Of a stretch of 43,842 bases of DNA, positions 11,277 to 42,732 are shown piece after piece; the stretch's first letter is position 1; each line of letters starts with the position of its first letter. The notes below the pieces were generated by a model. That model saw nothing but the letters and a program-made list of their open reading frames with translations. It did no database searches and was not told the DNA's origin. The stretch is from IMG/VR virus record IMGVR_UViG_3300025652_000142, positions 1-43,842 of that record, one strand, 5' to 3'. This DNA comes from a virus. The translations under genes and the position numbers were made by a program.

Positions 11277-12501
11277 TACCAGTTAAAAAACTCATAATAT
11301 CTTCTTGTGCTTCGGTTTTAGCATTAGAAGCTTCTCTTAAACTATTAACATTAGTAGCACGTTCTTGTATTTTATCAGTAGCTATATCTGTTGGTGAATC
11401 AACATCTAATGTTGCTGCATAATCTGGATTAATTTTTTCCATTGTTACATAATTTTCTATTGGACGTTCAGTAACTGGACTAACACTACTAGATATTCTT
11501 TCAGCAACTGTATTCATAGTTTCATTCATACGTTCAAATTTATCTTTAGCAACTAATGATTGTAGATATGGATTATATTGTTCTGCCATTTGAATAGCAG
11601 TTTCAGATTTTTCTTCATCTGATGGATAATAACCAAACGTTGCATAGTAAGATTCGTCATAAAATTCTTCATATTGTAATTTTGTCTTTGGTCCAAATTG
11701 TTGTCTAATCATATCTTCTGATTTTTTGTCAGTTAACAATTCAGATTGTTTTTTAGCTTCACTTGCATTATCTAACATACGTGTAAAAGCATTGCCAAAT
11801 ATTTCTTTTTGTAAAATAATTGCAGGTGGTGTCGTGTTGTTTGCTCTATCTCTATAATCTAAACCACCAAAATAAGTATTAACGTTATAATTAAACGTTC
11901 TATTATTAATAGTGTCTGTTATATTAGTTAATGCATTTGAAACATTTGTAGAATTTTCATGCCAATCATTCATTTGACTATCTGCATATAAAAATATTTC
12001 ATTAATAAAATTAGTTGTTTGTATTCCTTTTTCGCCACCAAGTTCTTCACCAAAATATTCTTCTGTTTTTAATCCAGAAGCTATTGCATCTCTTTGCATT
12101 CTATCTACTGTTGATGTATTTAATGAAAAAATTAAAGAAGCAACAAAATCATTTTGAAAATGTCCGTTAAAACTAACAGTATTGTAAACTCCTTCTTCAT
12201 TGTATATAGGTTCATTATTATCATCTAATATAGGCATAAGTCTAGGATTATCTAATACAGTTCTATTACCTATACTTGTAAGTGATTGATTGTTAGGTAC
12301 ATTGTCTATTATTGGAAAAACATTAGGACCAATTTGTTCAATTGCATTTACTATATCTAAAGTTATTCCAGAAGTTATAGCTTTACTTAATATCTGTTGT
12401 TGTTCAGGTGTTAAAGTGTAATCATCATATATAGAATCAAAATTAAAATCATTAGGTAAACCTACTGTATCTATAATCTCTTGTTTTTGTTCAGGTGTCA
12501 T
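11269..12501 (-). CDS. Large unknown virion-module protein (410 aa)
   Basis: No family recognised. Acidic, Asn/Thr rich and soluble, with the start overlapping the stop of the giant gene in TAATG. The N-terminus has tandem T-P-E-Q-K-Q and T-P-E-Q-Q-Q segments at residues 2-7 and ~32-37, a small internal repeat. Probably a virion protein by context. Confidence 0.5.
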   Translation of the reverse strand: MTPEQKQEIIDTVGLPNDFNFDSIYDDYTLTPEQQQILSKAITSGITLDIVNAIEQIGPNVFPIIDNVPNNQSLTSIGNRTVLDNPRLMPILDDNNEPIYNEEGVYNTVSFNGHFQNDFVASLIFSLNTSTVDRMQRDAIASGLKTEEYFGEELGGEKGIQTTNFINEIFLYADSQMNDWHENSTNVSNALTNITDTINNRTFNYNVNTYFGGLDYRDRANNTTPPAIILQKEIFGNAFTRMLDNASEAKKQSELLTDKKSEDMIRQQFGPKTKLQYEEFYDESYYATFGYYPSDEEKSETAIQMAEQYNPYLQSLVAKDKFERMNETMNTVAERISSSVSPVTERPIENYVTMEKINPDYAATLDVDSPTDIATDKIQERATNVNSLREASNAKTEAQEDIMSFLTGNG

Positions 12502-15500
12502 TAATTATCTCTCATATCTGTAATAAATTCTAGCTTATCTCCATCATTATTATATAGTTTAATAAAGACGCCATTCCAAATATACCAGAAATCAGGGTTT
12601 TTTTCTATAATCTTGTATGCTTGTTGAGCAACAGAAACTCTGACTGCATATGCTTCTTCAGTAGTACTTTCTAACCACCAAGTTTTACTATCAGTTCTAC
12701 TGTATTCTTTTGATATTTCTTCAGCATCTTCAACTACTTTAATAAAATCAAGTAATCCTTTTGCTGATGGTTGTTGCATAGCTTTTGTATTTGTAGGCCA
12801 TAAATATCTAATTTCATTCCAAATTTCTCCTGCAGGTATAAAAGTTTGTATACCATAATTACTTAAAAATCCAGGATTAGAATATGCTAAAGCATTTCTT
12901 GCATCTCTTTTTTTAACTACTTTTTCTGCATAATTTAATGTAGTATCTTCATCAATTTGTTTTGCTAATCTTTCATATCTAAACCAAGCAACAGAATCGT
13001 TTTGTTGTAATGCAAATTTATCAGGTCTTTTAGTAACACTAAACCATAAATTAGAATAAGTACGTTCTGCTTCAGGATTATCAGGAACTAAATACGCTGC
13101 ACTTTTTGGAAAAAGAGTAAGTAACTCATTATTTTTTCTTAGAAAATCAATATTTCTTTTTTCAAAAACTGCTTTTGTACCATCAGTAGATTCTTTACTA
13201 CCAGTAGTTATATATGGATGGTCTATACCATATTTAACATAAAATTCTTCTGCAGCAATAGTTGAATCAGAATTGTTTTTTATTAGTATTTTATTGTATT
13301 CATTAGCTAACATTTGTGTTGCCCACCATTTACCATTTTTATCTTTAACTGTAAATATAGGTTTAAATCCAGTAGGAAGTATTTCCTGTGCTATAGCTCT
13401 AATTAAAAATAATGATTTAGCTTTATGAGCTGAGTATTGTAACAAAGCATCTGTTAATGTTTGTTCTGTTAGCTCGCCTTTTGCTGGACCTTGTTCACTA
13501 TATAATGCTACTTTACGTCTACCATTCCAATCTTCATTTATATATCTAATATATTTATCTAATACACCAGACTTTAATAGTCTTTCTTCATCGTAACCTG
13601 CACGTATATTACTATAAATATCAATAGTTGTTTCTGCTCTCATACTGTCATATTCATCAGTAGAAGTTAACCATTCTTTAACATTATTATCAGAATCAAT
13701 TCTTCTTTCAGAACCTGGTCCTGAAGATAACCCCTCTGCAAGTAATTCAAATGGGTTTCCAGCTGCTATTAATTTTTTAGCAAAAGGAGGTGGAGATAGT
13801 ATTGCTTCAGTTATTTCATCTGGTGGAGCAAACGGCCCAAAAAACTGTTCTCTTAGTTCCATTTTTGCATCCATTTTATCAAATACTTTATTTAAAGCAA
13901 AAGCTACTATTGAGTTAGGACCTGGAGTTAAACTTGTACTTAATAAGTTTACACCTGCTATATTGCCAGCTGCAGTCATTCCTGCTTGTGCTTGTTCTAA
14001 TCCTAAATCTTTTGGAAATACTAAATTACTTATTTTTGAATTAAAAGGATATAAAAATAAATCGTCACCACTACCATTAGGGTCTGGTGAAAACCATCCT
14101 TGTCCTTGAAAATTATACGCACCAGCAGATGATTTTAGTCCTTTGTATAATAAATTACCCTCACGTATTTTATAAGGATTTTTAGCAGCTAATCTTCCCC
14201 AAGTTTTTCCCATTTCAAACCAAACTTCAGGGAAAGGAAATATATTTCTAGTTATTTCAGAAAGTTGATGTCTTTCAGAAGCATCATATAATAACTGTTG
14301 AGTACCTTTTAAACCAAACTGACTAGCTAATTCGCTTGTTGCTCTATAACTTCCTGTTTTACCAGATTGACCTAGTAGTTGCATACCAACAAGTTCATCA
14401 ATAGCTTTTTTTGGTATCTTTGCATCTTTAAATTCTTTAATATATTTAGTTTGTAATTTTTTAGTATACGTAGGAAACTGTGCAGCAACATACATATATC
14501 TGTATTGTTTAAAAGCAGGTGACCTATTAAGTCTTGATAGTGGTTCTGTTAACAAAAAGTTAAAAGATGTATTCCAAAATTCTGACATTAAATCAGCTCC
14601 TCTACCTAAACTTGTAGAAGCTAATCTACTTTTTTTAGGCATCATTACTTTACCAAAATCAACTGATACAATTTCATCACTACCAGCAATATAATTTTGT
14701 ATTTCTCTATAAATAGCTTGTTGTTGTTTTCTACCCCAATTTTTTACAAAAGGTGCTTTTTCCATATCAGGCATCATAGAAATGTAATCATCTGGATTAG
14801 TAACATCTCCTCCATGTTTTAATAATTTATCTGTCCATAAAGCTTCTCTTATTTGTAAGTTTCCATTATTTTCTATTGCATTATGATTAAAAATAAATGT
14901 TCCGTCAATTTGTTTAAATCTGTCTACACCTTCTTGCATTACATGACCTGTTCGCATTCTTATATCAGCTTCTAAAACAGATAAATATTCCATCATTTTG
15001 TCATGTTTAGAAACAATTTGTCTATATCTATCTCCTGTTTCTTGTATTAAATCTAATGCCATATCTTTTGCTTCTCTAGTTCTAGCCCAAGCTTCTAATT
15101 CAGGTCCCCAACCTAATCTTGCTACAACTCTTGACATTGGATTATTTCTTATATGTTGCAATTGTGTATTTATTGCTGATGCTCCTGCAATACTTTTTGC
15201 ATCTACAGCTACCCAATTGTATCCTTTAACACTCTGACTTCTATAATCTATACCTTGATAAGACCAGTTTGCATTTACAGCTTCACTAAAATATTGTGAA
15301 CTTAATATTTCATTAGTATCGTTACCAGAATCCATAAATTTTTCTACTAATTTTCTAGTACGACTACGTTTAGGAAGTTGTCCATAAGAATATACCCATG
15401 ATAAATAATCTCCAGGATTTGTAAATATACCGTCTAATCCTTCAAATATAAATCTAGCTTGTTCTTCTAAACCTACTCTAAATGATAAAGCTTGTTTAAT

Positions 15501-18356
15501 AATTTTTGTTGGTTTAAATATTAATGAGTTCCAACCATCAAACAAACTACTTATTAAATCGTTTTCTATTTTGTTAGTTGGTATAAAACCATATTTAAAA
15601 GGATTTTTACCTTCAGCTATTAAATTATTCATATATCGTAAAGGAGCTTTAAAATGGTCAGGGTCATCAACAGCATCTGCAACTTCAAAAAAGAATCCTT
15701 TTTGTATTCTATTAAGTCTTCTTACTGGGTATAAAGCTGCTCCATTATTTGCAGCTTCAGACAATTTAACTAAAGAAGGAACATAAATTTTTGTACCATC
15801 TTCTCTTTTAACAAATTTAGTAAAAGAAGTAAAAACTTCATCGCCCATTTCATCAGCTAAAAATGATTTTAATTGCTGTTGACTATTTTTTATATCTTCT
15901 AAACCTTTTTTAAATAATTTTTCACCATAATCACCTTTAGTACCAGCAATTAATTTTCTATCATATTCCATTAATCTTGTAGAAAATGCATCTAAATCAT
16001 CTACAACGCTTCCACCAGATTTAGTTTTTCTAACATTTGTTATAAAATCATTTAAAACTTTATCTGCCATTCTGCTTGTGTAACCTACATTTTCTACATG
16101 ACGAACTATATCAACAAATGCTTGATTTCTATTTTTATAACTTAAATTACTACCAGGTAATGTACTAAATTTCTTTGTCCAATATGGACTCATACCTTGT
16201 GTAAATGCTGAACTAAAACCTAAATTACTTGAGTAATCTAAAACACCTAATTCTTCCCAATCAGTTAAAGCTTTTTTATTTAAAGTTACTGTACCATCTA
16301 CAACTCTATTAAAAGCATTATCACCTTTTAATAATTTAACTCCTTTAGATGTAAATTTACCAATATTATCAACACTTCTAATAACTTTATTTCCTAAACC
16401 ACCAGCTATTGAACCTATAGACCTAAGTCCTGGGTCTGTACCTGTTAAACCTTTTAATGCAGCATTAGTTAAAGCAGAACTACCTTTAGGAATACTATTT
16501 AATATAAACGGTGTTACTGTTTTTTCTGCTACATAACCTTCACTTAATGCTCTACGTATAATATTTTCTGTTTTGGCAAAAGTTTTACTTTTAGCAACTT
16601 CTACTAAAACTTCTTCTGGTGCATCAACTAACCAAGGATTTTTTGCAAGTTTAGCAACGTTTGATTCTTCAGTCATACCTTGTATTGATTTTCTAACAAA
16701 AGTTTTTTGCATTAAATCATTAACTGTATTTGATAAAAACTTAGGTGTTTTACCTAAAAGTAATCCATATTTTTTTCTAGCTGCACCGTCTGCTTTCATA
16801 GCAGGTTTAATATAACCTTTATAAATATCACTTTGTAATGCTCTATATCTAAAAGGAGCGTCTGTAGTATAGTCAAATACTTCAGCATTAATATTTGGAC
16901 CAACTTTGCTTTGACCTGTAAAAGGATTTACATATTTTTCAATAGGTTCTAATATTTCTTTTGCTTTGTCGTGAGTAAACAATTTTTTATTTTTAAGCAT
17001 GTCAGGTAATCTATCTACTTGACCAGCAAGAATAGAACCTTTTTTAATTGTTTTAGTAATTGCACCTAGACCTAAACTAGATATTATTCTATTTTCTGCA
17101 TCAATAGCACCAGAAACAACATTGTAAGCTTTAGAACCTACTGGTTCAAACTTAGATGCTTCGTATCTACCAATTGAATAAGGTATTCTTACTCCAGCAT
17201 TTTCATTACGTGCTTGTATTTCTTCATAATCTTGAGCTAAATCAGGACTATATACAAATCTAGTTCCAGCAAATGCATTAATCATGTTAGGTTTTTGTAT
17301 TGATGTCCAATTAATTTCTGAACCTTCATCAGGTTTTTTTATTGGTTCTCCAATATTTGCATAAATTATTTCTTCAGCTTGTTTAGGTGTATAACCAAAA
17401 ACATTTACCAAAGAATTATATTCAGGCATATCTTCAGCAATTAAACTTTCAAATGACAAAACATTATTTCTGTTGTAGTTAACTGGTAAGTTTTGTACTA
17501 CTCTAGTTAAAGCTTCTTTAGCATATGCTTCTCCAGCTAAGTTTTTAGCTTCTCCAATCCAACGTAACAACTGTTTAGTTTCTCCTATAAATCCTAGTTT
17601 TTCTCCTACTTCTTCTTGTGTCAAACTTAAATTAATTGGAATATTTGATTGTGCATACTCTTTTGTATAACCAGATTCTAAATATCTATCATAAGCATTC
17701 ATTTGTTGTACGTAAGCCCACACACGTCCTCTTGGTTTATAAAAACCCATTGGGTCTTTCCAAGATACTGTTCTACCTTCTTCAGGTGTTTCATTTTGTG
17801 GAAAAGGACTCCATATAACAGCATTTTCATCAAACCAATCTGCAGCTGCTACAGCCCATAAACTTGTTTGAGTATCTGCAAATTTGCTTATATTAGGTTG
17901 AAAATCAATTTTGCCAATAACAGGAAATTCTCTGACACCATCTTCTGAATATATTATTTTTTCTAAAGAATCAGGAACTAATTTATTACCATAAAAAAAT
18001 GCAGTAGAGGCTAATCCTCCAGCAATATCAAAAAGATTCATTGTCATGTCGTCATTGTATTTATTTGTTTGAAATCTATTTTTAACTGTTTCCCAATCAT
18101 TAGCTGCTTGGACACAATATTGTAATGAATACTCGTCACATAAATCTTGCATAGCTTGAGATGATGGAGGTACTTCTAACTGTGCCATAGGTATTAATAC
18201 TTCAGCAGGAAGTATTGCATACTTACTTGTATATTCTTCTAATCTTTCAGTAAAACCTGGATTACTTTTTATGTAATCTTTTGCAGATTTTAATTTATTA
18301 TTTAAAGCATTTGTGTTGTTTCCAACATTTTCTAAGTCAAAATAACTTAATACCAT
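12501..18356 (-). CDS. Giant 1951-aa virion protein (probable internal/ejection protein)
   Basis: A single uninterrupted frame of 5.9 kb, about 13% of the window. No catalytic motif was recognised: I looked for lysozyme/transglycosylase, protease and polymerase signatures. The protein is lysine/asparagine rich, largely helical, without signal peptide, and with repeated aromatic-rich segments. Giant proteins next to the portal in short-tailed phages are often packaged inside the head and injected with DNA (T7 gp16, N4 vRNAP), so that is the best guess. Its order (portal, two small genes, this gene) is preserved with coupled starts. Other possibility: a polyprotein-like scaffold of the inner core. 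Confidence 0.65.
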   Translation of the reverse strand: MVLSYFDLENVGNNTNALNNKLKSAKDYIKSNPGFTERLEEYTSKYAILPAEVLIPMAQLEVPPSSQAMQDLCDEYSLQYCVQAANDWETVKNRFQTNKYNDDMTMNLFDIAGGLASTAFFYGNKLVPDSLEKIIYSEDGVREFPVIGKIDFQPNISKFADTQTSLWAVAAADWFDENAVIWSPFPQNETPEEGRTVSWKDPMGFYKPRGRVWAYVQQMNAYDRYLESGYTKEYAQSNIPINLSLTQEEVGEKLGFIGETKQLLRWIGEAKNLAGEAYAKEALTRVVQNLPVNYNRNNVLSFESLIAEDMPEYNSLVNVFGYTPKQAEEIIYANIGEPIKKPDEGSEINWTSIQKPNMINAFAGTRFVYSPDLAQDYEEIQARNENAGVRIPYSIGRYEASKFEPVGSKAYNVVSGAIDAENRIISSLGLGAITKTIKKGSILAGQVDRLPDMLKNKKLFTHDKAKEILEPIEKYVNPFTGQSKVGPNINAEVFDYTTDAPFRYRALQSDIYKGYIKPAMKADGAARKKYGLLLGKTPKFLSNTVNDLMQKTFVRKSIQGMTEESNVAKLAKNPWLVDAPEEVLVEVAKSKTFAKTENIIRRALSEGYVAEKTVTPFILNSIPKGSSALTNAALKGLTGTDPGLRSIGSIAGGLGNKVIRSVDNIGKFTSKGVKLLKGDNAFNRVVDGTVTLNKKALTDWEELGVLDYSSNLGFSSAFTQGMSPYWTKKFSTLPGSNLSYKNRNQAFVDIVRHVENVGYTSRMADKVLNDFITNVRKTKSGGSVVDDLDAFSTRLMEYDRKLIAGTKGDYGEKLFKKGLEDIKNSQQQLKSFLADEMGDEVFTSFTKFVKREDGTKIYVPSLVKLSEAANNGAALYPVRRLNRIQKGFFFEVADAVDDPDHFKAPLRYMNNLIAEGKNPFKYGFIPTNKIENDLISSLFDGWNSLIFKPTKIIKQALSFRVGLEEQARFIFEGLDGIFTNPGDYLSWVYSYGQLPKRSRTRKLVEKFMDSGNDTNEILSSQYFSEAVNANWSYQGIDYRSQSVKGYNWVAVDAKSIAGASAINTQLQHIRNNPMSRVVARLGWGPELEAWARTREAKDMALDLIQETGDRYRQIVSKHDKMMEYLSVLEADIRMRTGHVMQEGVDRFKQIDGTFIFNHNAIENNGNLQIREALWTDKLLKHGGDVTNPDDYISMMPDMEKAPFVKNWGRKQQQAIYREIQNYIAGSDEIVSVDFGKVMMPKKSRLASTSLGRGADLMSEFWNTSFNFLLTEPLSRLNRSPAFKQYRYMYVAAQFPTYTKKLQTKYIKEFKDAKIPKKAIDELVGMQLLGQSGKTGSYRATSELASQFGLKGTQQLLYDASERHQLSEITRNIFPFPEVWFEMGKTWGRLAAKNPYKIREGNLLYKGLKSSAGAYNFQGQGWFSPDPNGSGDDLFLYPFNSKISNLVFPKDLGLEQAQAGMTAAGNIAGVNLLSTSLTPGPNSIVAFALNKVFDKMDAKMELREQFFGPFAPPDEITEAILSPPPFAKKLIAAGNPFELLAEGLSSGPGSERRIDSDNNVKEWLTSTDEYDSMRAETTIDIYSNIRAGYDEERLLKSGVLDKYIRYINEDWNGRRKVALYSEQGPAKGELTEQTLTDALLQYSAHKAKSLFLIRAIAQEILPTGFKPIFTVKDKNGKWWATQMLANEYNKILIKNNSDSTIAAEEFYVKYGIDHPYITTGSKESTDGTKAVFEKRNIDFLRKNNELLTLFPKSAAYLVPDNPEAERTYSNLWFSVTKRPDKFALQQNDSVAWFRYERLAKQIDEDTTLNYAEKVVKKRDARNALAYSNPGFLSNYGIQTFIPAGEIWNEIRYLWPTNTKAMQQPSAKGLLDFIKVVEDAEEISKEYSRTDSKTWWLESTTEEAYAVRVSVAQQAYKIIEKNPDFWYIWNGVFIKLYNNDGDKLEFITDMRDN

Positions 18357-25302: not shown

Positions 25303-25815
25303 ATGCATTCCTTCCGTTACTCTTTGTCGCAGAGCAACGAAAGGAATATTATGCATGGACATTTAATTGAGATTAAAAATAAACCATTAAAAAAGTATCA
25401 AGTACAAATATCATATTTCAGACAACAAGTGTTTGATAAAATAGATGATAATAAAAAACTAGATATAGAAAATGGTATAGCTAATCGATATGAAGTAGAG
25501 GCTAGTTCATTAGAACAAGCTATTGCTAGAGCTATTAAAATTGACACTGTTGTTAAAGCAGAAACAATGGCACGTTATCCAGGTATTTTACCTGATGAAG
25601 ACGAATTTGATAAAGATACAGTACTTAAATTTGCTGAATTTCTTGATGATAAGGGTTTGTTTCAGGACTGGATATTGTTAGAGCCAACAGCTATACAAGC
25701 TAGTTTAATCGATGACGAAGATGAACTTAATACGCTTACAGAAAATGCTGTTATGGAACATAGCAGTAACATGAGTGACGAAATAGAAGATTTTCTTAGA
25801 GATACTAAGGAATAA
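25303..25815 (+). CDS. Unknown acidic early protein with two possible starts (170 or 154 aa)
   Basis: Two in-frame ATGs each have a ribosome site: 25303 behind GGAAGGAG and 25351 behind CGAAAGGA. The first 16 residues add only a Ser/Arg-rich tag, so the 154-aa form may be the main product. GGAAGGA (at ~25290) can pair with TCCTTCC just inside the frame, hiding the first site. The protein has a K-x-K-x-Y-x-V-x-I-S-Y beta start, a helix (L-E-Q-A-I-A-R-A-I) and a long acidic C-terminus ending E-I-E-D-F-L-R-D-T-K-E. It directly precedes the AAA+ gene and may belong to that system. Not recognised. Confidence 0.55.
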   Translation: MHSFRYSLSQSNERNIMHGHLIEIKNKPLKKYQVQISYFRQQVFDKIDDNKKLDIENGIANRYEVEASSLEQAIARAIKIDTVVKAETMARYPGILPDEDEFDKDTVLKFAEFLDDKGLFQDWILLEPTAIQASLIDDEDELNTLTENAVMEHSSNMSDEIEDFLRDTKE

Positions 25816-25839: not shown

Positions 25840-26565
25840 ATGGCAAACGATTGCTGGGAATTAGTAGAATCTGTATTGGGCAATAGCCGTAGAGTATTAC
25901 TTTATGGCCCACCTGGTACAGGTAAGACATACAGTGCTGTTAAAACTAATACGCCTAAAGCGTATAGTAAATCAGCAGGAAAAGAAATAGATAATATCTA
26001 TCAAATAACTATGACAGAAGATACTGCTAGTGCAAACTTAGAAGGTTTTTACAAACCATCTAGCACAGGTACTTTTGAATGGCATGACGGTATTGCAATA
26101 CAATCATGGAAAAATGGTGGTCGCCTTGTAATTAATGAGATAGACCATGCGTCACCAGACGCAATGACGTTTCTACATGCTATTTTAGACGACCAAGAAA
26201 TAGCAATGTTGACATTAAATAACGATACAAAAGAAACAGTTAGACCAGCTGATGGCTTTCAAGTTATAGCTACAACTAACAGTCCACCAGAGTCATTACC
26301 TTTGGCTTTGAAAGACAGATTTCCTGTAAAAATATATGTTGACAGTATACACCCTAAAGCAATGGAACAGTTTCCAGATGAGTGGCACGGTGTAATTAAT
26401 GATACAACATTAGTAGAAGATGATGAAGAACGTATTTCAGTACGTGCATGGACAGAGTTCTTTAACTTACAAGCTAATGGCTTTAGTCCAGAACAAGCAG
26501 CTAAATTAGTCTTTGCAGACAAAGCAGAAGAATTAATAGATGCTGTTACGTTAGCACGTGCTTAA
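25840..26565 (+). CDS. MoxR/CobS-like AAA+ ATPase
   Basis: 241 aa with GAAAGGAG ribosome site. Walker A G-P-P-G-T-G-K-T (23-30), Walker B R-L-V-I-N-E-I-D (95-102), sensor 1 A-T-T-N-S-P (144-149) and a conserved arginine in L-K-D-R-F (160, arginine-finger region). This is the dynein-related/AAA_5 type that forms hexameric rings and works with a VWA partner, as in MoxR-VWA and CobS-CobT. Its stop overlaps the start of exactly such a VWA gene. Role inferred: ATP-driven remodelling of a target selected by the partner. In phages similar genes are often called cobS, but no cobalamin genes are present here. Confidence 0.85.
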   Translation: MANDCWELVESVLGNSRRVLLYGPPGTGKTYSAVKTNTPKAYSKSAGKEIDNIYQITMTEDTASANLEGFYKPSSTGTFEWHDGIAIQSWKNGGRLVINEIDHASPDAMTFLHAILDDQEIAMLTLNNDTKETVRPADGFQVIATTNSPPESLPLALKDRFPVKIYVDSIHPKAMEQFPDEWHGVINDTTLVEDDEERISVRAWTEFFNLQANGFSPEQAAKLVFADKAEELIDAVTLARA

Positions 26566-27985
26566 TAGTAAAGCTTATCCATATCCAGAAATTGTTACTG
26601 GTGAGAAGTGGGAAGTAGTAGGTACTATTAACAACAGTCCCGATGGTTCTACAGATAATCTCAACAGACAAATGACAGTACCTCTCGATAGAGAGTGTAC
26701 AGAATGTGGTATCAATCATAGTCGTATGATACGTAGACACGAACTTGGTCATGCCAAGTGGAGTCCAAAGACTATGGGTAAGCTAAAACCAGGTGTACGT
26801 GCAGAGGCTGTTCATGTACTAGAAGAAGTTAGAGTTAATCATCTTCTATATGAAAACAAGCTTGCATTATCTGAACCATCAAAGTGTTTAGATGTAATAC
26901 AACAAGAAACTATGAAATTAGTTTACGAATCAGGTATTGCAGAGATAATACTTATGGGTTTAGCTAGTAAATGGAAAGTACCAGATATTGATACTAACCG
27001 TAGATATGCTAGTTATAAATACAATGATGAGTGGGTTGTAATGTCAGCTTGTTTCAACATGATAAGAAATGATGATACAGTTACTGATTATCGTAAACAA
27101 CAGATTATATATGCAGAAAGAATTATTGCTAGATTTTTTCAAAGTATTACTAATCATGGTTATGGTCAAACTATTAGTTATCGTAAAGTACAAAAGTATG
27201 CAGAACCATTGAGTGCAATACTTGACATGTTCAGAGATGCACCTACACAAGATGAAGTATACAAACCTAAACCAAAATCACATACCGCACCTGGTATTGA
27301 TGAGAGTGAAGGGAATGCTGAAGAATCTAATGAGTTAGGTGGTGGTTCTTTAGAACAACGTACAAGAGACGACCTAGCAGAGTTATTGTATAGAAGTACT
27401 CAAGGTACAGGTAGATGGGGTGAAATGTTTACGCATCAACCACCATTATCTGTTAATTTACAAAGTAGACTTAAAAACGGTAGGTCGTATAGACCAGCTG
27501 ACTTTGGTTACAATCCAAAATACATTAACAGATACTGTATAGATAAGAAAATATTCAAACAAAAAATGACTGCACTTGGTGGCACAATACTTATTGATGC
27601 ATCAGGTTCTATGTCATTTAATGGTGAAGATATTTTAGAAGTTATGCAGCAATTACCTGCTGTTACTATTGCTATGTACAATGGTACAGGTGACACAGGT
27701 GATTTACGTATCATTGCTAAAAATGGTAAACGTGTAACTGAAAAGTATTTAGATAACCATTCAGGTTACGGTAATGTTGTAGATGGTCCTGCTTTAGAAT
27801 GGCTAGGAACACAACCAGCTAGAAGAATATGGGTATCAGACATGCATGTGTTTGGTGCGCATGGTGATACTGCTGGTTTTAATCTAATGGCTGATGTAAA
27901 TAAAATCGTTAGAAAATACAATATTATTAACCTTAAGAACATAGAAGAAGTAAAGGAACATGCATTAAAACTGAATGTAGTATAG
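26558..27985 (+). CDS. VWA protein with N-terminal HExxH metallopeptidase-like domain
   Basis: 475 aa from a GTG start overlapping the AAA+ gene by 8 bp (translational coupling; ATG at residue 39 is the alternative start). C47/C50 and then H61-E-L-G-H65 with Glu89/Glu90 following at the spacing of a zincin third ligand. The middle is helical, then an acidic linker (~245-270). The C-terminal VWA domain has a full MIDAS: D347-A-S-G-S351, with D409 and D428. Resembles CobT-like and DUF2201-type proteins in which a metallopeptidase-like domain is joined to VWA. Predicted partner of the AAA+ ring, possibly a regulated protease or chaperone. Confidence 0.8.
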   Translation: MLNSKAYPYPEIVTGEKWEVVGTINNSPDGSTDNLNRQMTVPLDRECTECGINHSRMIRRHELGHAKWSPKTMGKLKPGVRAEAVHVLEEVRVNHLLYENKLALSEPSKCLDVIQQETMKLVYESGIAEIILMGLASKWKVPDIDTNRRYASYKYNDEWVVMSACFNMIRNDDTVTDYRKQQIIYAERIIARFFQSITNHGYGQTISYRKVQKYAEPLSAILDMFRDAPTQDEVYKPKPKSHTAPGIDESEGNAEESNELGGGSLEQRTRDDLAELLYRSTQGTGRWGEMFTHQPPLSVNLQSRLKNGRSYRPADFGYNPKYINRYCIDKKIFKQKMTALGGTILIDASGSMSFNGEDILEVMQQLPAVTIAMYNGTGDTGDLRIIAKNGKRVTEKYLDNHSGYGNVVDGPALEWLGTQPARRIWVSDMHVFGAHGDTAGFNLMADVNKIVRKYNIINLKNIEEVKEHALKLNVV

Positions 27986-28263: not shown

Positions 28264-28265
28264 AT
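28238..28265 (+). promoter_or_regulatory. Putative promoter for a leaderless transcript
   Basis: TTGTAT (28238-28243), 16 bp, perfect TATAAT (28260-28265). The -10 box overlaps the first possible ATG (28264) and lies 7 bases before the second ATG (28273), so transcription would begin at or next to that second ATG with no leader. Confidence 0.5.
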
Positions 28266-28506
28266 GACAAGTATGAAAGATATAGATAAACTTCTGAAAG
28301 AAGCTGAACATGGTAAGACAAGTTCAGTAGCTGACAGAATAACAGATGAAGCAATGCCATTCTGGCAAGGATGTATAGAACGATTAACTTCTGGACATAA
28401 CATAAAACCATATGTTGTACACAGATTGTTAAGAGAAGAATATGGTATTAAAATATCAGAATCAGCTATACGTAATCACTTTATGAAAGTAGTAAACAAT
28501 GAGTAA
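28264..28506 (+). CDS. Small HTH-like protein (80 aa; start may be 28273)
   Basis: No ribosome site precedes either ATG; the promoter spacing favours the ATG at 28273 (77 aa, leaderless). The C-terminal half, V-H-R-L-L-R-E-E-Y-G-I-K-I-S-E-S-A-I-R-N, is a good helix-turn-helix, so a DNA-binding regulator is likely. The N-terminal K-D-I-D-K-L-L-K-E-A-E tag is nearly the same as in the next gene, suggesting duplication or a common docking helix. Overlaps that gene by 8 bp. Confidence 0.65.
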   Translation: MTSMKDIDKLLKEAEHGKTSSVADRITDEAMPFWQGCIERLTSGHNIKPYVVHRLLREEYGIKISESAIRNHFMKVVNNE

Positions 28507-29554
28507 AGACGTTGATAAACTAATAGCAGAAGCTGAATCACTGAAAATTCAGGAACTAAAATCTGATAATCTTAAGTTACTTAAGCAATTAGATAAAGCT
28601 AAAAATAAAAAAGCTGATTTAATTGAGGCTATGTATGATGCTGTGCGAATGAATGTATCTACATGGGCTAAACCTAATGTTCCTAAACCAACATTAAGTA
28701 AAGCTAATAAGAATGAAGAAATTGCAGTAGCTATATTATCAGATATACAGTTAGCTAAAATAACACCAGATTATGACACAGCAATAGCAGAGAAAAGAGT
28801 TGTTGCATATGCACATAAGATAGTAGAACTAGCTAATCTTCAAAGAAATGCACACCCTGTTAACAAATGCGCAGTATTAGTTGCAGGTGACATTGTAGAA
28901 GGAGAGCTTATATTCCCAGGACAATCACACTTGATAGACGCAAGTCTGTATAGTCAAGTTACAATTGATGGCCCTAGAATATTGACACAGTTTTTTGATG
29001 TACTGTTAGCTAACTTTAAAGAAGTAGAAGTTACATGGGTTATAGGTAATCACGGAAGCCTTGGTGGTCGTGCAAGAAAAGACTATCACCCAGACAGCAA
29101 CAGTGACCGTATGCTAGGAAAGATAATGTCAATGATATATGATAAAGATAAAAGAATTTCTTTTCATGTACCAGACAGTACAACAGAAGACCATTGGTTT
29201 GGTATAGCAGACCTTGGTAAAGACTGTAAATTCTTTGTATGGCATGGAGATAATGTACGAGGACATAGCGGTTTTCCTTGGTATGGTTTCGGTAAAAAAC
29301 TATTAGGTTGGAAAGCATTGGCATCAAGAAATCTTATGCCTGACTTTGACTATGCAATAGCTGGACACTTCCATACACCTACAACAATGTATGTTAATGA
29401 TGTACGTTTATGGGTTAATGGAAGCACAGAAAGCTACAATAGTTACGCTATGGAGCAGCTAGCAAGCATGGGTAGACCATGTCAATGGCTATTATTCTGT
29501 AAACCAGGACACGGAGTAACTGCTGAATACCTTGTAAAACTGGATAAAGTATAG
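28499..29554 (+). CDS. Calcineurin-like metallophosphoesterase
   Basis: 351 aa. Metal-binding motifs are in order: D82-I-Q84 (usual D-x-H has Gln), G-D131, G-N-H185, H249-G-D and G-H-F-H (289-292). Residues 1-45 are a coiled-coil tag with K-D-V-D-K-L-I-A-E-A-E. The fold is that of SbcD/Mre11-type nucleases and related phosphodiesterases, and phages often carry such a gene beside recombination genes. Substrate not evident: DNA end processing or nucleotide/cyclic-nucleotide cleavage are both possible. Confidence 0.85.
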   Translation: MSKDVDKLIAEAESLKIQELKSDNLKLLKQLDKAKNKKADLIEAMYDAVRMNVSTWAKPNVPKPTLSKANKNEEIAVAILSDIQLAKITPDYDTAIAEKRVVAYAHKIVELANLQRNAHPVNKCAVLVAGDIVEGELIFPGQSHLIDASLYSQVTIDGPRILTQFFDVLLANFKEVEVTWVIGNHGSLGGRARKDYHPDSNSDRMLGKIMSMIYDKDKRISFHVPDSTTEDHWFGIADLGKDCKFFVWHGDNVRGHSGFPWYGFGKKLLGWKALASRNLMPDFDYAIAGHFHTPTTMYVNDVRLWVNGSTESYNSYAMEQLASMGRPCQWLLFCKPGHGVTAEYLVKLDKV

Positions 29555-29785: not shown

Positions 29786-30337
29786 ATGACTAATAACAAC
29801 AAACTGTTGTCCCCATTTCCACAGGAGCTAGTTAAAAAAGCACCTGCTGGTAAGTTCGGGGATTACGTACCACACGCTAACTATGTAGAAAGACTACGTG
29901 ATAGTGGTGTTACATACTCTTGGTCATGTGAACCTGTATATGGTACACATAACGGAGAGAAAAGAATTGTCGGAGCTAAAGGTACTATAACCATAGAAGG
30001 TATGGGTAGTTACGATGGCTTTGGTGATGTTGATACCTTCAAGCTTGGCAATGCTAAGTTTAATGACGGTAACAACCTTAAAGACGCAGAATCAGACGCG
30101 TTCAAGCGTGCATGTATGAGGTTCGGTCTAGGTGTAGAGCTATGGTCTGGTAGTAAACAGACTGAAGAAGAAGCTACATCTATTGCACCTGATGGTTATA
30201 CGCAGGAACAAGCAGACAAAGATGCTATGGTAGAAGTTACCAAAGTAGATATGCGTTTGAAAGAAAACAAGATGTCTAAAGAAGACAAAGCTGCAGCAGC
30301 AGCAATTATGGACAGTATCTTAGGTACTGAATCATGA
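29786..30337 (+). CDS. Rad52-family single-strand annealing protein
   Basis: 183 aa with AAAGGA ribosome site. Features of the Rad52/Sak family: an early V-P-H-A-N-Y-V-E-R-L-R segment (~residues 28-38), a beta-sheet core (Y-S-W-S-C-E-P; G-A-K-G-T-I-T-I), then the signature A-E-S-D-A-F-K-R-A-C-M-R-F-G-L-G (~101-116). The C-terminus is an acidic/Ala-rich tail likely used for protein contacts. It would anneal complementary ssDNA for phage recombination and replication restart. Overlaps the zinc-ribbon gene that follows (ATGA), a likely partner. Confidence 0.85.
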   Translation: MTNNNKLLSPFPQELVKKAPAGKFGDYVPHANYVERLRDSGVTYSWSCEPVYGTHNGEKRIVGAKGTITIEGMGSYDGFGDVDTFKLGNAKFNDGNNLKDAESDAFKRACMRFGLGVELWSGSKQTEEEATSIAPDGYTQEQADKDAMVEVTKVDMRLKENKMSKEDKAAAAAIMDSILGTES

Positions 30338-31042: not shown

Positions 31043-31309
31043 ATGATACCAAGTGCATTTAGAGGGGTAAACGTACCCGTATATGTAAAAAGTAAAACAC
31101 AGTTAGTAGCATGGGCGTTAGAAGAATTTCAAACTTCTGACCCTATAACTAACTGGGAGTTTGTAAGAGAATTATATTGCCATAGATTTGGTGGGATAAT
31201 CTTTAACCTACGTCAAGAAGGTTATGAAATTACAACAATTAAAACAAACACAAAAGGTTTAGTCAGTTATCGCTGCACTAAAGTACCTTCAAGAACTACC
31301 ATTAGCTAA
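31043..31309 (+). CDS. Helix-turn-helix protein (88 aa)
   Basis: GAAAGGAAAG ribosome site. Pattern of phage winged-HTH proteins: L-V-A-W-A-L-E, a helix, I-T-N-W-E-F-V-R-E, then F-G-G-I-I-F-N-L-R-Q-E-G-Y-E-I as recognition helix and wing start, with Y-R-C at the end of a beta strand. Probable DNA-binding regulator. Overlaps the lysozyme gene by one base. Confidence 0.7.
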   Translation: MIPSAFRGVNVPVYVKSKTQLVAWALEEFQTSDPITNWEFVRELYCHRFGGIIFNLRQEGYEITTIKTNTKGLVSYRCTKVPSRTTIS

Positions 31310-31743
31310 TGTTAGAGATAATAGTCGGGTGTTTGTTTCCAATGTTTCTAACACCTGACTTATTATCAGAGTACATAGAATGCAGAGAAGTAAAAGAACA
31401 AGTAGTTTATGTAGCACAATGGCACAGTTTAATTTCTACATACTTTGAACCAGAAGATGTAATACAAGCAATGACTATTGTTTATTGCGAAAGCAGAGGA
31501 AAAGAAACAGCAGTAGGTCGTAATACAAATGGGACAGATGACGTAGGCCTTTGGCAATTTAATGACAAAACTTGGGCTTGGTTAAAACCTAAGCTTGATA
31601 TAATAAGTAATAGAAAGAACCCTATAATATCGACAAAAGTAGCAGCTTGGTTAGTGTACAACGATGGTTGGCATCATTGGAATAGTAGCAAGCACTGTTG
31701 GAAAGGACACGATAATGTATTATTATCAATCAACACACAATGA
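31309..31743 (+). CDS. Lysozyme/transglycosylase-type muralytic enzyme
   Basis: 144 aa. A hydrophobic start (residues 3-18) could be a signal or signal-arrest segment. The catalytic pattern of lysozyme-like transglycosylases is clear: Y-C-E61-S-R-G, then D-V-G-L-W-Q-F-N-D (78-86) and a late W-L-V-Y-N-D-G-W...W (114-124), with Cys60/Cys130 as a possible disulphide. Cleaves cell-wall glycan; unusual in being placed in the early arc, away from the holin. It may be a virion- or export-linked enzyme, or the main endolysin. Confidence 0.75.
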   Translation: MLEIIVGCLFPMFLTPDLLSEYIECREVKEQVVYVAQWHSLISTYFEPEDVIQAMTIVYCESRGKETAVGRNTNGTDDVGLWQFNDKTWAWLKPKLDIISNRKNPIISTKVAAWLVYNDGWHHWNSSKHCWKGHDNVLLSINTQ

Positions 31744-40657: not shown

Positions 40658-41692
40658 TTATGCAAAGCTCACTGTTCCACTTGTTTGTATTTCTACATAT
40701 TTTCTTGAACCAACTGTTTGTTCTCCAGCACTTGATGATGCTCCTCCAGCAAAAGATATTGTGTAATCACTTGGATAACTTAAAATAACTACTCCAGAAC
40801 CAGCATTTCCACCAGTACCATAGTAGTAACTTCCACCACCACCACCACCACCAGTGTTAGCTGTTCCTGGTTTACCTGCTTTGCCTTGTCCTGCATCTGA
40901 ACCATTACCACCACCACCAGTACCTCCTGTAGCACCAGCAGCACCACCAGTGGGTCCACCACCTCCACCACCAGCTCTAGTTACACTAGAACCTGTGATT
41001 GTAGAAGCAACTCCATCACCACCGTGTCCATCACCATCTGTACCACCTGCTTCACCTGCACCACCTCCACCACCTGCAATAGCACTAGGACTATTTTCAC
41101 CAGAAAAACCTTGATTAGCTGTACCAGCACCACCTGTGCCTGATGCCATAGAAGCTCCACCACCAGAACCTCCTGAACCACCATTTGTAGAAGTATATTT
41201 AACACCCTTACCACCACCAGTTGATGTTACAGTTGCGAAAGCAGAGTTAACACCTGCGTTTCCATCTGTAACACTACCACTACTATTTCCTGTACCACCA
41301 GCACCACCTGCACCAACAGTAACTGTATAACTTGTGCTATCAAGTAACAATAAAGCATCTTCAGAAGAACCTCCTCCACCAGATGCTTCAGAGTTATAAG
41401 AAGCACGATAGCCACCTGCTCCACCACCAGAACCTATATCAGAAGCACCACCACCACCACCTGCAATAACTAAATAGTCAACAGATAAAGAAGGAATATC
41501 TTTCATTACTTTCCAAGCAGAACCATTGTAATAAAAAGGAGCTGCTTTATCTGTATCATATACTATGTCACCAGCTACTGATGTCAGTGCATTTTTTTGT
41601 GCAGTAGTGTATGACTTTAATCCTAGTGCATTATCTATAGCTACATTGTTTTGGTCATTTGTTGAAATCTTATTTGTTTTTAATTCACTCAT
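40658..41692 (-). CDS. Glycine-rich tail fibre adhesin (344 aa)
   Basis: Residues 1-70 are an anchor: N-V-A-I-D-N-A-L-G-L-K-S-Y-T, A-L-T-S-V-A-G-D-I-V-Y, Y-N-G-S-A-W. This is followed by L-V-I-A-G-G-G-G-G and a ~230-residue Gly/Ser/Ala region with poly-Gly blocks, like the Gly-rich sandwich of distal phage adhesins (T-even S16 gp38-type), then a C-terminal beta end V-V-I-L-S-Y-P. Gly blocks with variable loops between them are where receptor specificity is set. Paralogue immediately upstream. Confidence 0.8.
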   Translation of the reverse strand: MSELKTNKISTNDQNNVAIDNALGLKSYTTAQKNALTSVAGDIVYDTDKAAPFYYNGSAWKVMKDIPSLSVDYLVIAGGGGGASDIGSGGGAGGYRASYNSEASGGGGSSEDALLLLDSTSYTVTVGAGGAGGTGNSSGSVTDGNAGVNSAFATVTSTGGGKGVKYTSTNGGSGGSGGGASMASGTGGAGTANQGFSGENSPSAIAGGGGGAGEAGGTDGDGHGGDGVASTITGSSVTRAGGGGGGPTGGAAGATGGTGGGGNGSDAGQGKAGKPGTANTGGGGGGGSYYYGTGGNAGSGVVILSYPSDYTISFAGGASSSAGEQTVGSRKYVEIQTSGTVSFA

Positions 41693-42732
41693 TATGCAAA
41701 GCTCACTGTTCCTGTTCCTGCTGTAAAAGTTACTACTGTATCAGAACCATCTGTTGCACTTGATGAAGTTAAACCTGCACCAACTGTAATAGTTGCATCT
41801 GCTGTAGCCCATCTTAAAACTACTAAACCACTACCACCAGCTCCACCAGTTCCAGAAATTGTACTGTGAGTTCCACCACCTGCACTACCTGTGTTTACAG
41901 TTCCTGCACCACCATTAGCTGAAGCAGTTGCTGTTCCATTACCACCACCACCTGCACCACCAGAACCAGGTACACCACCTAAATCTGACCTACCACCACC
42001 ACCTCCACCACCAGCTCTAGTTACACTAGAACCTGTGATTGAAGATGCTAAACCATCTCCTCCATCTCCACTAGGGTCAGTACGAATTGGTGGAGTTCCT
42101 CCAACTGCACCTGCACCACCTCCACCACCAGTTGGATACTCACCTGGGTATAAGTTACTACCCCCAGGAAATCCTTGTTCAAAATTATTGCCACCACCAT
42201 TAGAATTACCACCAGAATATCTACCACCACCACCAGAACCTCCGTGGTTAGGGTCATCAAGTAATCCCCCATAACCACCACCTACTGCTATTCCATAATG
42301 ATATTTAGAATTGTTACCATTAGTTGCTTCTGCACTTGAAGTTCCACCAGCTCCACCACTACCTACAGTTACTGTATAAGTTTGTCCTAAAAAAGTTAAT
42401 ATTTTTGTTGCTGTTGAAGTAGCTCCACCAGATTGTTCAGATGCGTAACTATTTATATAACCTCCTGCACCACCACCACCTCTGCCTCCTCCACCACCAC
42501 CTGCAATAATTAGTGATGAAAGAGTTAATGATACTAAACCACCTAAATCTTCCCAAGCTGAACCTGTATATACTTGAACTTTATTGTCATCAGAGTTGTA
42601 TATAGTATCTCCAGCTACTGATGTAAGTGCATTTCTAGCACTTGTACTGTATGACTTTAAATTTAAAGCATCATCAAAAGATACATTGTTAGTAGAGTAT
42701 TTACCTATAGCGTTAGTTTCTAATGTACTCAT
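41692..42732 (-). CDS. Glycine-rich tail fibre adhesin, paralogue (346 aa)
   Basis: Same design as the 344-aa neighbour: anchor with N-V-S-F-D-D-A-L-N-L-K-S-Y-S and A-L-T-S-V-A-G-D-T-I-Y, then L-I-I-A-G-G-G-G-G, poly-Gly blocks and a C-terminal G-T-V-S-F-A shared with the neighbour. The segment S-S-I-T-G-S-S-V-T-R-A-G-G-G-G-G is identical in both, while the loops between are different. Confidence 0.8.
   Translation of the reverse strand: MSTLETNAIGKYSTNNVSFDDALNLKSYSTSARNALTSVAGDTIYNSDDNKVQVYTGSAWEDLGGLVSLTLSSLIIAGGGGGGRGGGGAGGYINSYASEQSGGATSTATKILTFLGQTYTVTVGSGGAGGTSSAEATNGNNSKYHYGIAVGGGYGGLLDDPNHGGSGGGGRYSGGNSNGGGNNFEQGFPGGSNLYPGEYPTGGGGGAGAVGGTPPIRTDPSGDGGDGLASSITGSSVTRAGGGGGGGRSDLGGVPGSGGAGGGGNGTATASANGGAGTVNTGSAGGGTHSTISGTGGAGGSGLVVLRWATADATITVGAGLTSSSATDGSDTVVTFTAGTGTVSFA

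Follow-up and report, generated by a model that had tools for sequence, protein, structure and literature searches.

The window (the whole stretch of 43,842 nt analysed here) comprises a 43.8-kb virus sequence whose source record comes without a host genome. Its minus strand carries a structural block at ~2–22.6 kb, including the terminase and major head protein genes, and a block of plus-strand genes occupies ~23 to 33 kb. Inside the latter lie a gene for a 241-aa AAA+ ATPase of the CobS/MoxR-like AAA_5 family (25840–26565, +), preceded by a GGAG Shine-Dalgarno sequence, and a gene with a GTG start for a 475-aa VWA protein with an N-terminal zincin-like domain (26558–27985, +; phrog_33218, E = 1e-28), which overlaps the ATPase gene by 8 nt. 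The coordinates, gene overlap, HELGH motif (residues 61–65) and DASGS MIDAS reported in the first-pass annotation were all correct when re-checked against the sequence, and the AAA-VWA pair is real, well conserved and no artefact. Elsewhere in the window, a 1951-aa ORF in the structural block (12501–18356, −) had no PHROG or PDB sequence match, and two neighbouring ORFs, 344 and 346 aa long (40658–42732, −), matched the same region of phrog_2295 and are apparently tandem paralogues.

The first protein of the pair was identified by Pfam, PHROG and PDB profile matches. It matched AAA_5 (E = 2.1e-18), an ATPase family (phrog_16448, E = 2e-33) and a family labelled 'porphyrin biosynthesis' (phrog_249, E = 1e-20), and in the PDB its profile matched Midasin, NorQ/CbbQ and CobS, the likeness to CobS being weak. 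Judged by its motifs, it is a MoxR/AAA_5-type ATPase with a P-loop domain containing Walker A, sensor 1 and an Arg finger. Among 30 relatives, residues G23–K29 of Walker A (GPPGTGKT, residues 23–30; 25906–25929, +) were invariant, as were the sensor 1 residue N147 and the Arg finger R160 within DRF (26278–26319, + for the stretch between them), and a further arginine, R202, was invariant or nearly so. The first-pass annotation had described complete Walker A and B motifs, sensor 1 and a conserved Arg, which holds for all of these except Walker B (RLVINEID, residues 95–102; 26122–26145, +), where N99-E100, both invariant in the 30 relatives, replaces the D-E pair. This N-E form, in which the catalytic Glu is retained, was found throughout the clade of the window and in the aligned cellular relatives, as well as in distant relatives. 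The phage CobS proteins P0005 and P0006 have D-E. The substitution could lower ATPase activity.

A mostly invariant segment of the same protein, NLEGFYKPSSTGTFEWHDGI (residues 66–85; 26035–26094, +; 30 relatives), may form the helix-2 insert hairpin seen in MoxR-type ATPases, judging from its position and pattern; this insert (H2i) is defined in PMC13036017. The structure model of the AAA protein was poor (pLDDT 49). The bpMoxR profile (PF20030) scored 16.7 bits on the AAA protein, below its cut-off of 27, and the Pfam matches of the scanned neighbour genes included no VMAP protein or effector domains.

In the VWA protein, the MIDAS motif DASGS (residues 347–351; 27596–27610, +) is followed by a likely further MIDAS Asp, D428 (27839–27841), and D347, S349, S351 and D428 were intact in 71 of 71 diverged relatives, a set whose members share less than 85% identity with one another. 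The AlphaFold2 model of this protein reached a pLDDT of 79 and a pTM of 0.72, and a structural search with it returned as its top match the VWA domain of NorD in NorQ-NorD complexes, with Z scores of 9.3 (rmsd 3.7 over 148 residues) and 9.0. These scores lie just above the top Z of 7 to 8 that unrelated models often reach, but NorD is also what the AAA partner would lead one to expect. Directly before the first VWA strand, residues 300–338 (27455–27571, +) rank among the most conserved parts of the protein (mean major-residue frequency 0.84; 14 of 39 positions invariant), and the pLDDT of the model falls at 308–317 and 333–338. Since the pore-inserted finger of NorD sits at the corresponding place before its VWA domain (PMC13036017), this conserved, low-pLDDT segment is a candidate finger for the AAA pore and may dock in a NorD-like manner.

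The reading of the two genes as a MoxR-VWA pair is sustained by the AAA_5 match, the NorD structural match, conserved adjacency and the universally intact MIDAS. Among homologues, the MIDAS was kept in all 71 and G23–K29 of Walker A was invariant in all 30. The VWA-type proteins of this branch had no significant match in Pfam, 45 clade members giving scattered weak hits only, and the branch is new to that database; the family profile found nothing in the PDB; and tblastn against isolate phages and plasmids gave no true match. Matches to Burkholderia tape-measure proteins (E of 0.2 or worse) were rejected.

The N-terminal half of the VWA protein carries HELGH, an HExxH motif on a predicted helix spanning residues 55–67 (26738–26752, +), which was intact in 59 of the 71 relatives. 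Twenty-four residues downstream, on a second predicted helix (residues 82–99), the acidic pair E89-E90 of LEEVRVN (26822–26827, +) occupies a candidate third-ligand position, proposed from its co-variation with HExxH: E89 together with Asp or Glu at position 90 was present in 56 of 59 HExxH-intact members and in 0 of 12 HExxH-less members (Fisher p = 4e-11, with kinship ignored). By this pattern, HExxH and the acidic pair behave as one functional site under joint constraint. The domain would be a metal-binding, proteolytic site. Clade members also share C47-x2-C50-x3-H54 (26696–26719, +) and C110 (26885–26887), invariant in 45 of them, which may form a structural metal (zinc) site; this set is clade-specific, being absent from distant relatives except L158. 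Fold searches with the VWA model listed no zincin, the lists being filled by the VWA domain.

The HExxH motif was lost at least five times, the maximum-likelihood tree requiring five losses that are all forced by well-supported branches. Degenerate forms include K-Q-[IL]-[GA]-[HY], [TV]-E-L-A-H, H-Q-L-G-R, L-Q-L-G-H and L-A-[LV]-A-D. A distant HExxH-less lineage (L210:4375-7324 with L221, L230, L241, L242 and L246; VWA ~147 bits) keeps the AAA-VWA order, with the HTH and nuclease genes known from the window coming next. As read from these alignments, the HExxH site is dispensable and the AAA-VWA core is not, and because HExxH was lost repeatedly with AAA, VWA and MIDAS intact, a peptidase is weakened as the core function of the pair. 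The peptidase-like domain originally proposed holds up in the form of a real, jointly varying site with homology to the T4-like cyanophage 'peptidase' (see below).

Direct matches in viral contigs amounted to 50 distinct loci for the VWA protein and at least 80 for the AAA protein. The order AAA, VWA, 80-aa ORF, phosphoesterase nuclease and annealing protein was kept in 45 of 45 distinct testable clade contigs. In the window, the 80-aa ORF, the first conserved gene after the pair and possibly an HTH protein, lies at 28264–28506 (+); the calcineurin-like phosphoesterase of an annotated exonuclease family lies at 28499–29554 (+; phrog_284 exonuclease, E = 4e-40; Pfam Metallophos, E = 7e-5); and the Rad52/Erf-like single-strand annealing protein lies at 29786–30337 (+; phrog_3290, E = 7e-12; Pfam Rad52_Rad22, E = 0.0018). 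An SLT transglycosylase-domain protein is encoded 3' of the annealing protein gene in the same plus-strand block (31309–31743, +).

Just upstream of the pair, a gene at 25303–25815 (+) encodes an acidic, fast-evolving, clade-specific protein of 170 aa, present in 42 of 45 distinct testable clade contigs, and assignment of this companion to WGR or another known domain was rejected, as no convincing match and no convincing Pfam family were found. The suggestion that it is a third component of the machine fails as a universal rule: the protein co-occurs with the pair within the clade, but it evolves fast, and profile searches did not recover it next to distant pairs. Its mean column identity of 29% is what might be expected of a host-facing adaptor, and the first-pass annotation had proposed that the pair attacks or remodels a host target. 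A protease-remodeller directed against a host protein, for host takeover or counter-defence, is nonetheless quite unlikely in our assessment. The AAA protein is among the most conserved of its block (median ~80% identity, like the nuclease and the annealing protein), unlike a typical arms-race gene, and no defence or anti-defence gene was recognised among the neighbours scanned. An attack on the host found no backing; with recombination genes around it, the pair is at least as likely to act in phage DNA metabolism.

Distant relatives, obtained from one cellular-genome scan and one wider viral-contig scan, shared roughly 25–45% identity. Few cellular members turned up, in 1 of 288 genomes of one sampled phylum and 2 of 294 of another, with the AAA gene directly upstream of the VWA gene in those cellular loci that allow the test. 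AAA adjoins VWA in the distant loci too, except in L182, which is truncated, and L247, in which no AAA was found. A Streptomyces sp. NBC_00239 plasmid has a WGR-domain gene directly 5' of an AAA-VWA(HExxH) pair and an RNB ribonuclease gene 3' of it (L181:3516-6716), and a Verrucomicrobiia contig encodes a fusion of WGR and an ATP-dependent DNA ligase, a 132-aa ORF, AAA, VWA/HExxH and a tyrosine integrase, in what looks like a mobile island (L164:5688-10823). WGR was rejected as a general partner, being present in only 1 of 18 records with relatives (the genome of L164).

The phosphoesterase likewise fails as a universal partner, as most other distant viral lineages with the pair had no Metallophos match on the contig; the link of the nuclease to the pair is lineage-specific. 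The nuclease of the window also could not be supported as an orthologue of T4-like gp47, since it belongs to phrog_284 and the gp47 family is phrog_100. On the distant contigs, the positions of DNA polymerase A and terminase genes gave mixed contexts, and in two of them (L189 and L235) a terminase gene lies a few kb from the pair on the same strand. This proximity would suit a chaperone-protease for virion assembly, in which the pair remodels and processes a head or tail structural protein, as does the failure to recognise a head-maturation protease in the scanned genes of the window. Such a role was proposed for the pairs of group 2.2 jumbo phages, with a tail-assembly MoxR-VWA of an archaeal virus cited there as precedent (PMC7824862). 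We regard it as unlikely here. The pair sits in the plus-strand nuclease and annealing block, apart from the minus-strand structural block at 2–22.6 kb; T4-like phages place theirs among replication and recombination genes; and repeated loss of HExxH is unexpected for an essential maturation protease.

We give about an even chance to the reading that the pair is a MoxR/CobS-type remodelling machine that serves phage DNA recombination or replication, remodelling or clipping proteins on phage DNA. In its favour, genes for a phosphoesterase nuclease and a single-strand annealing protein accompany the pair in all 45 contigs; against it stand the lineage-specificity of the nuclease link, the placement of the window nuclease outside the gp47 family, the terminase genes near the pair in L189 and L235 and the N-E Walker B with its possible cost in ATPase activity. 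The shared operon, and the replication/recombination location in T4-like phages, make proteins on phage DNA the likely target. Under this reading, the 241-aa AAA+ protein would assemble into a ring, and the 475-aa partner would dock by its VWA domain, probably with the finger at residues 300–338 in the ring pore. The N-terminal domain and the MIDAS of the VWA protein would hold a protein target, and ATP turnover would twist or pull the VWA partner together with the bound target, by analogy with NorQD (PMC13036017). In most members, the zincin-like N-terminal half, with HELGH and the acidic pair, would cut or grip the target, and in HExxH-less members the same half would serve as a non-catalytic binding arm. 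The machine would presumably act in early DNA metabolism.

A more specific form of this reading, by analogy with Cdc48 and Wss1/SPRTN, is that the phage machine clears or clips proteins on phage DNA ends for the nuclease and the annealing protein. We consider it distinctly doubtful. Touching on it, the same general kind of pair occurs beside WGR on the Streptomyces plasmid and beside the WGR-DNA ligase fusion in the Verrucomicrobiia. If this specific form were true, the 'cobS/peptidase' of T4-like cyanophages would do the same job and would be misnamed as a B12 gene.

These results matter for how such genes are read in viral genomes. Almost every marine cyanomyophage carries cobS, which is generally classed among the B12 genes (PMC9983427, PMC8651126). 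The branch described here is a pair of that kind that shows no similarity to CobT and, in small marine phages, is fixed within a recombination operon. Repeated loss of the peptidase-like site, with the ATPase-VWA core kept, separates the core function (remodelling) from an accessory one. Natural versions with and without HExxH share a genomic setting and constitute a natural experiment in which both functions are testable. The N-E Walker B together with the HExxH-ED signature allows this unannotated branch to be found in viromes.

Among known systems, the T4-like cyanophages offer a close counterpart. The profile of the distant relatives aligned with the T4-like cyanophage 'peptidase' (phrog_459) at an hhalign E of 8e-6, which became 2.4e-7 after two members were added. 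The alignment spans exactly HExGH to ED-x-RI and scored 53, and none of 200 block-shuffles scored above 32. This profile alignment identifies the N-terminal domain as a homologue of the 'peptidase' that T4-like cyanophages encode next to cobS. The phrog_459 protein of cyanophage Syn19 and of Ochrobactrum phage vB_OspM_OC adjoins cobS between gp47/46 (SbcD/SbcC) and gp45/44, and the neighbourhood of the pair in pelagiphage HTVC008M is broadly similar to that in T4-like phages. In all of these, as in the window, an AAA_5 protein is adjacent to a VWA protein with N-terminal HExxH...ED-x-R-I, in a replication/recombination neighbourhood. The systems differ in that the cyanophage phrog_459 protein is 719 aa long and has an extended acidic central part, whereas the VWA protein of the window has 475 aa, and in that the cyanophage pair runs VWA then AAA, with a D-E Walker B and a phrog_100 nuclease nearby, whereas the window has AAA then VWA, N-E and phrog_284. 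The same motif pattern, with weak profile similarity (E = 0.001), was seen in actinophage and Streptomyces plasmid pairs.

CobS-CobT shares the division of labour between AAA and VWA proteins, and 'CobST' pairs with a proposed B12 role have been described in tailed viruses (PMC8651126). A viral CobS-CobT that takes over the CobN of its host to boost B12 synthesis would accord with the phrog_249 label on the AAA protein, with the proposal of that function for related pairs of haloarchaeal tailed viruses and cyanophages (PMC8651126), and with the precedent of NorQD, a pair of this sort that inserts a metal (PMC13036017). We judge it highly improbable for this pair. The window AAA is only weakly CobS-like, and Pfam CobT (PF06213) was not matched, appearing in one of 45 clade members at E = 0.28 and nowhere in the record. 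Neither CobN nor any other cob gene was recognised among the scanned ORFs of the window, itself perhaps an incomplete record, which agrees with the earlier remark that no cobalamin gene supports a chelatase role. Moreover, the N-terminal half of the VWA protein is an HExxH domain, and the genes that accompany the pair encode a nuclease and an annealing protein. A B12 role is without support beyond names, and a cobS/cobT label is unfit here. DUF2201_N/DUF2201 proteins also place HExxH before a VWA-like part in a single protein, as in L172, but show no profile relation to the window protein across the HExxH domain: the DUF2201_N profile (PF13203) gave no match, and an origin of the HExxH domain from DUF2201 was unsupported, with an E of only 0.04 when hhalign compared it with two DUF2201 sequences and no match in Pfam. 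Of the families proposed for profile comparison (CobS/CobT, DUF2201 and MoxR), the AAA_5/CobS-like ATPase was recovered, and CobT and DUF2201 were not.

NorQ-NorD and CbbQ-CbbO likewise combine a MoxR-type AAA with a VWA partner, and the conserved 300–338 segment takes the place of the NorD finger. NorQD, however, inserts iron into a reductase, the window AAA differs in its N-E Walker B, and the portion of PMC13036017 available describes no HExxH domain in NorD, whereas the window VWA protein has one. Group 2.2 jumbo phages encode MoxR-vWA-metallopeptidase pairs (PMC7824862) that have, by their description, the same architecture of an AAA+ protein and a VWA protein with an N-terminal metallopeptidase, although they come from jumbo phages and the window record is ~44 kb. 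As such pairs appear in both PMC7824862 and PMC8651126, the architecture is known, and the pair in the window is a divergent, Pfam-less branch of it.
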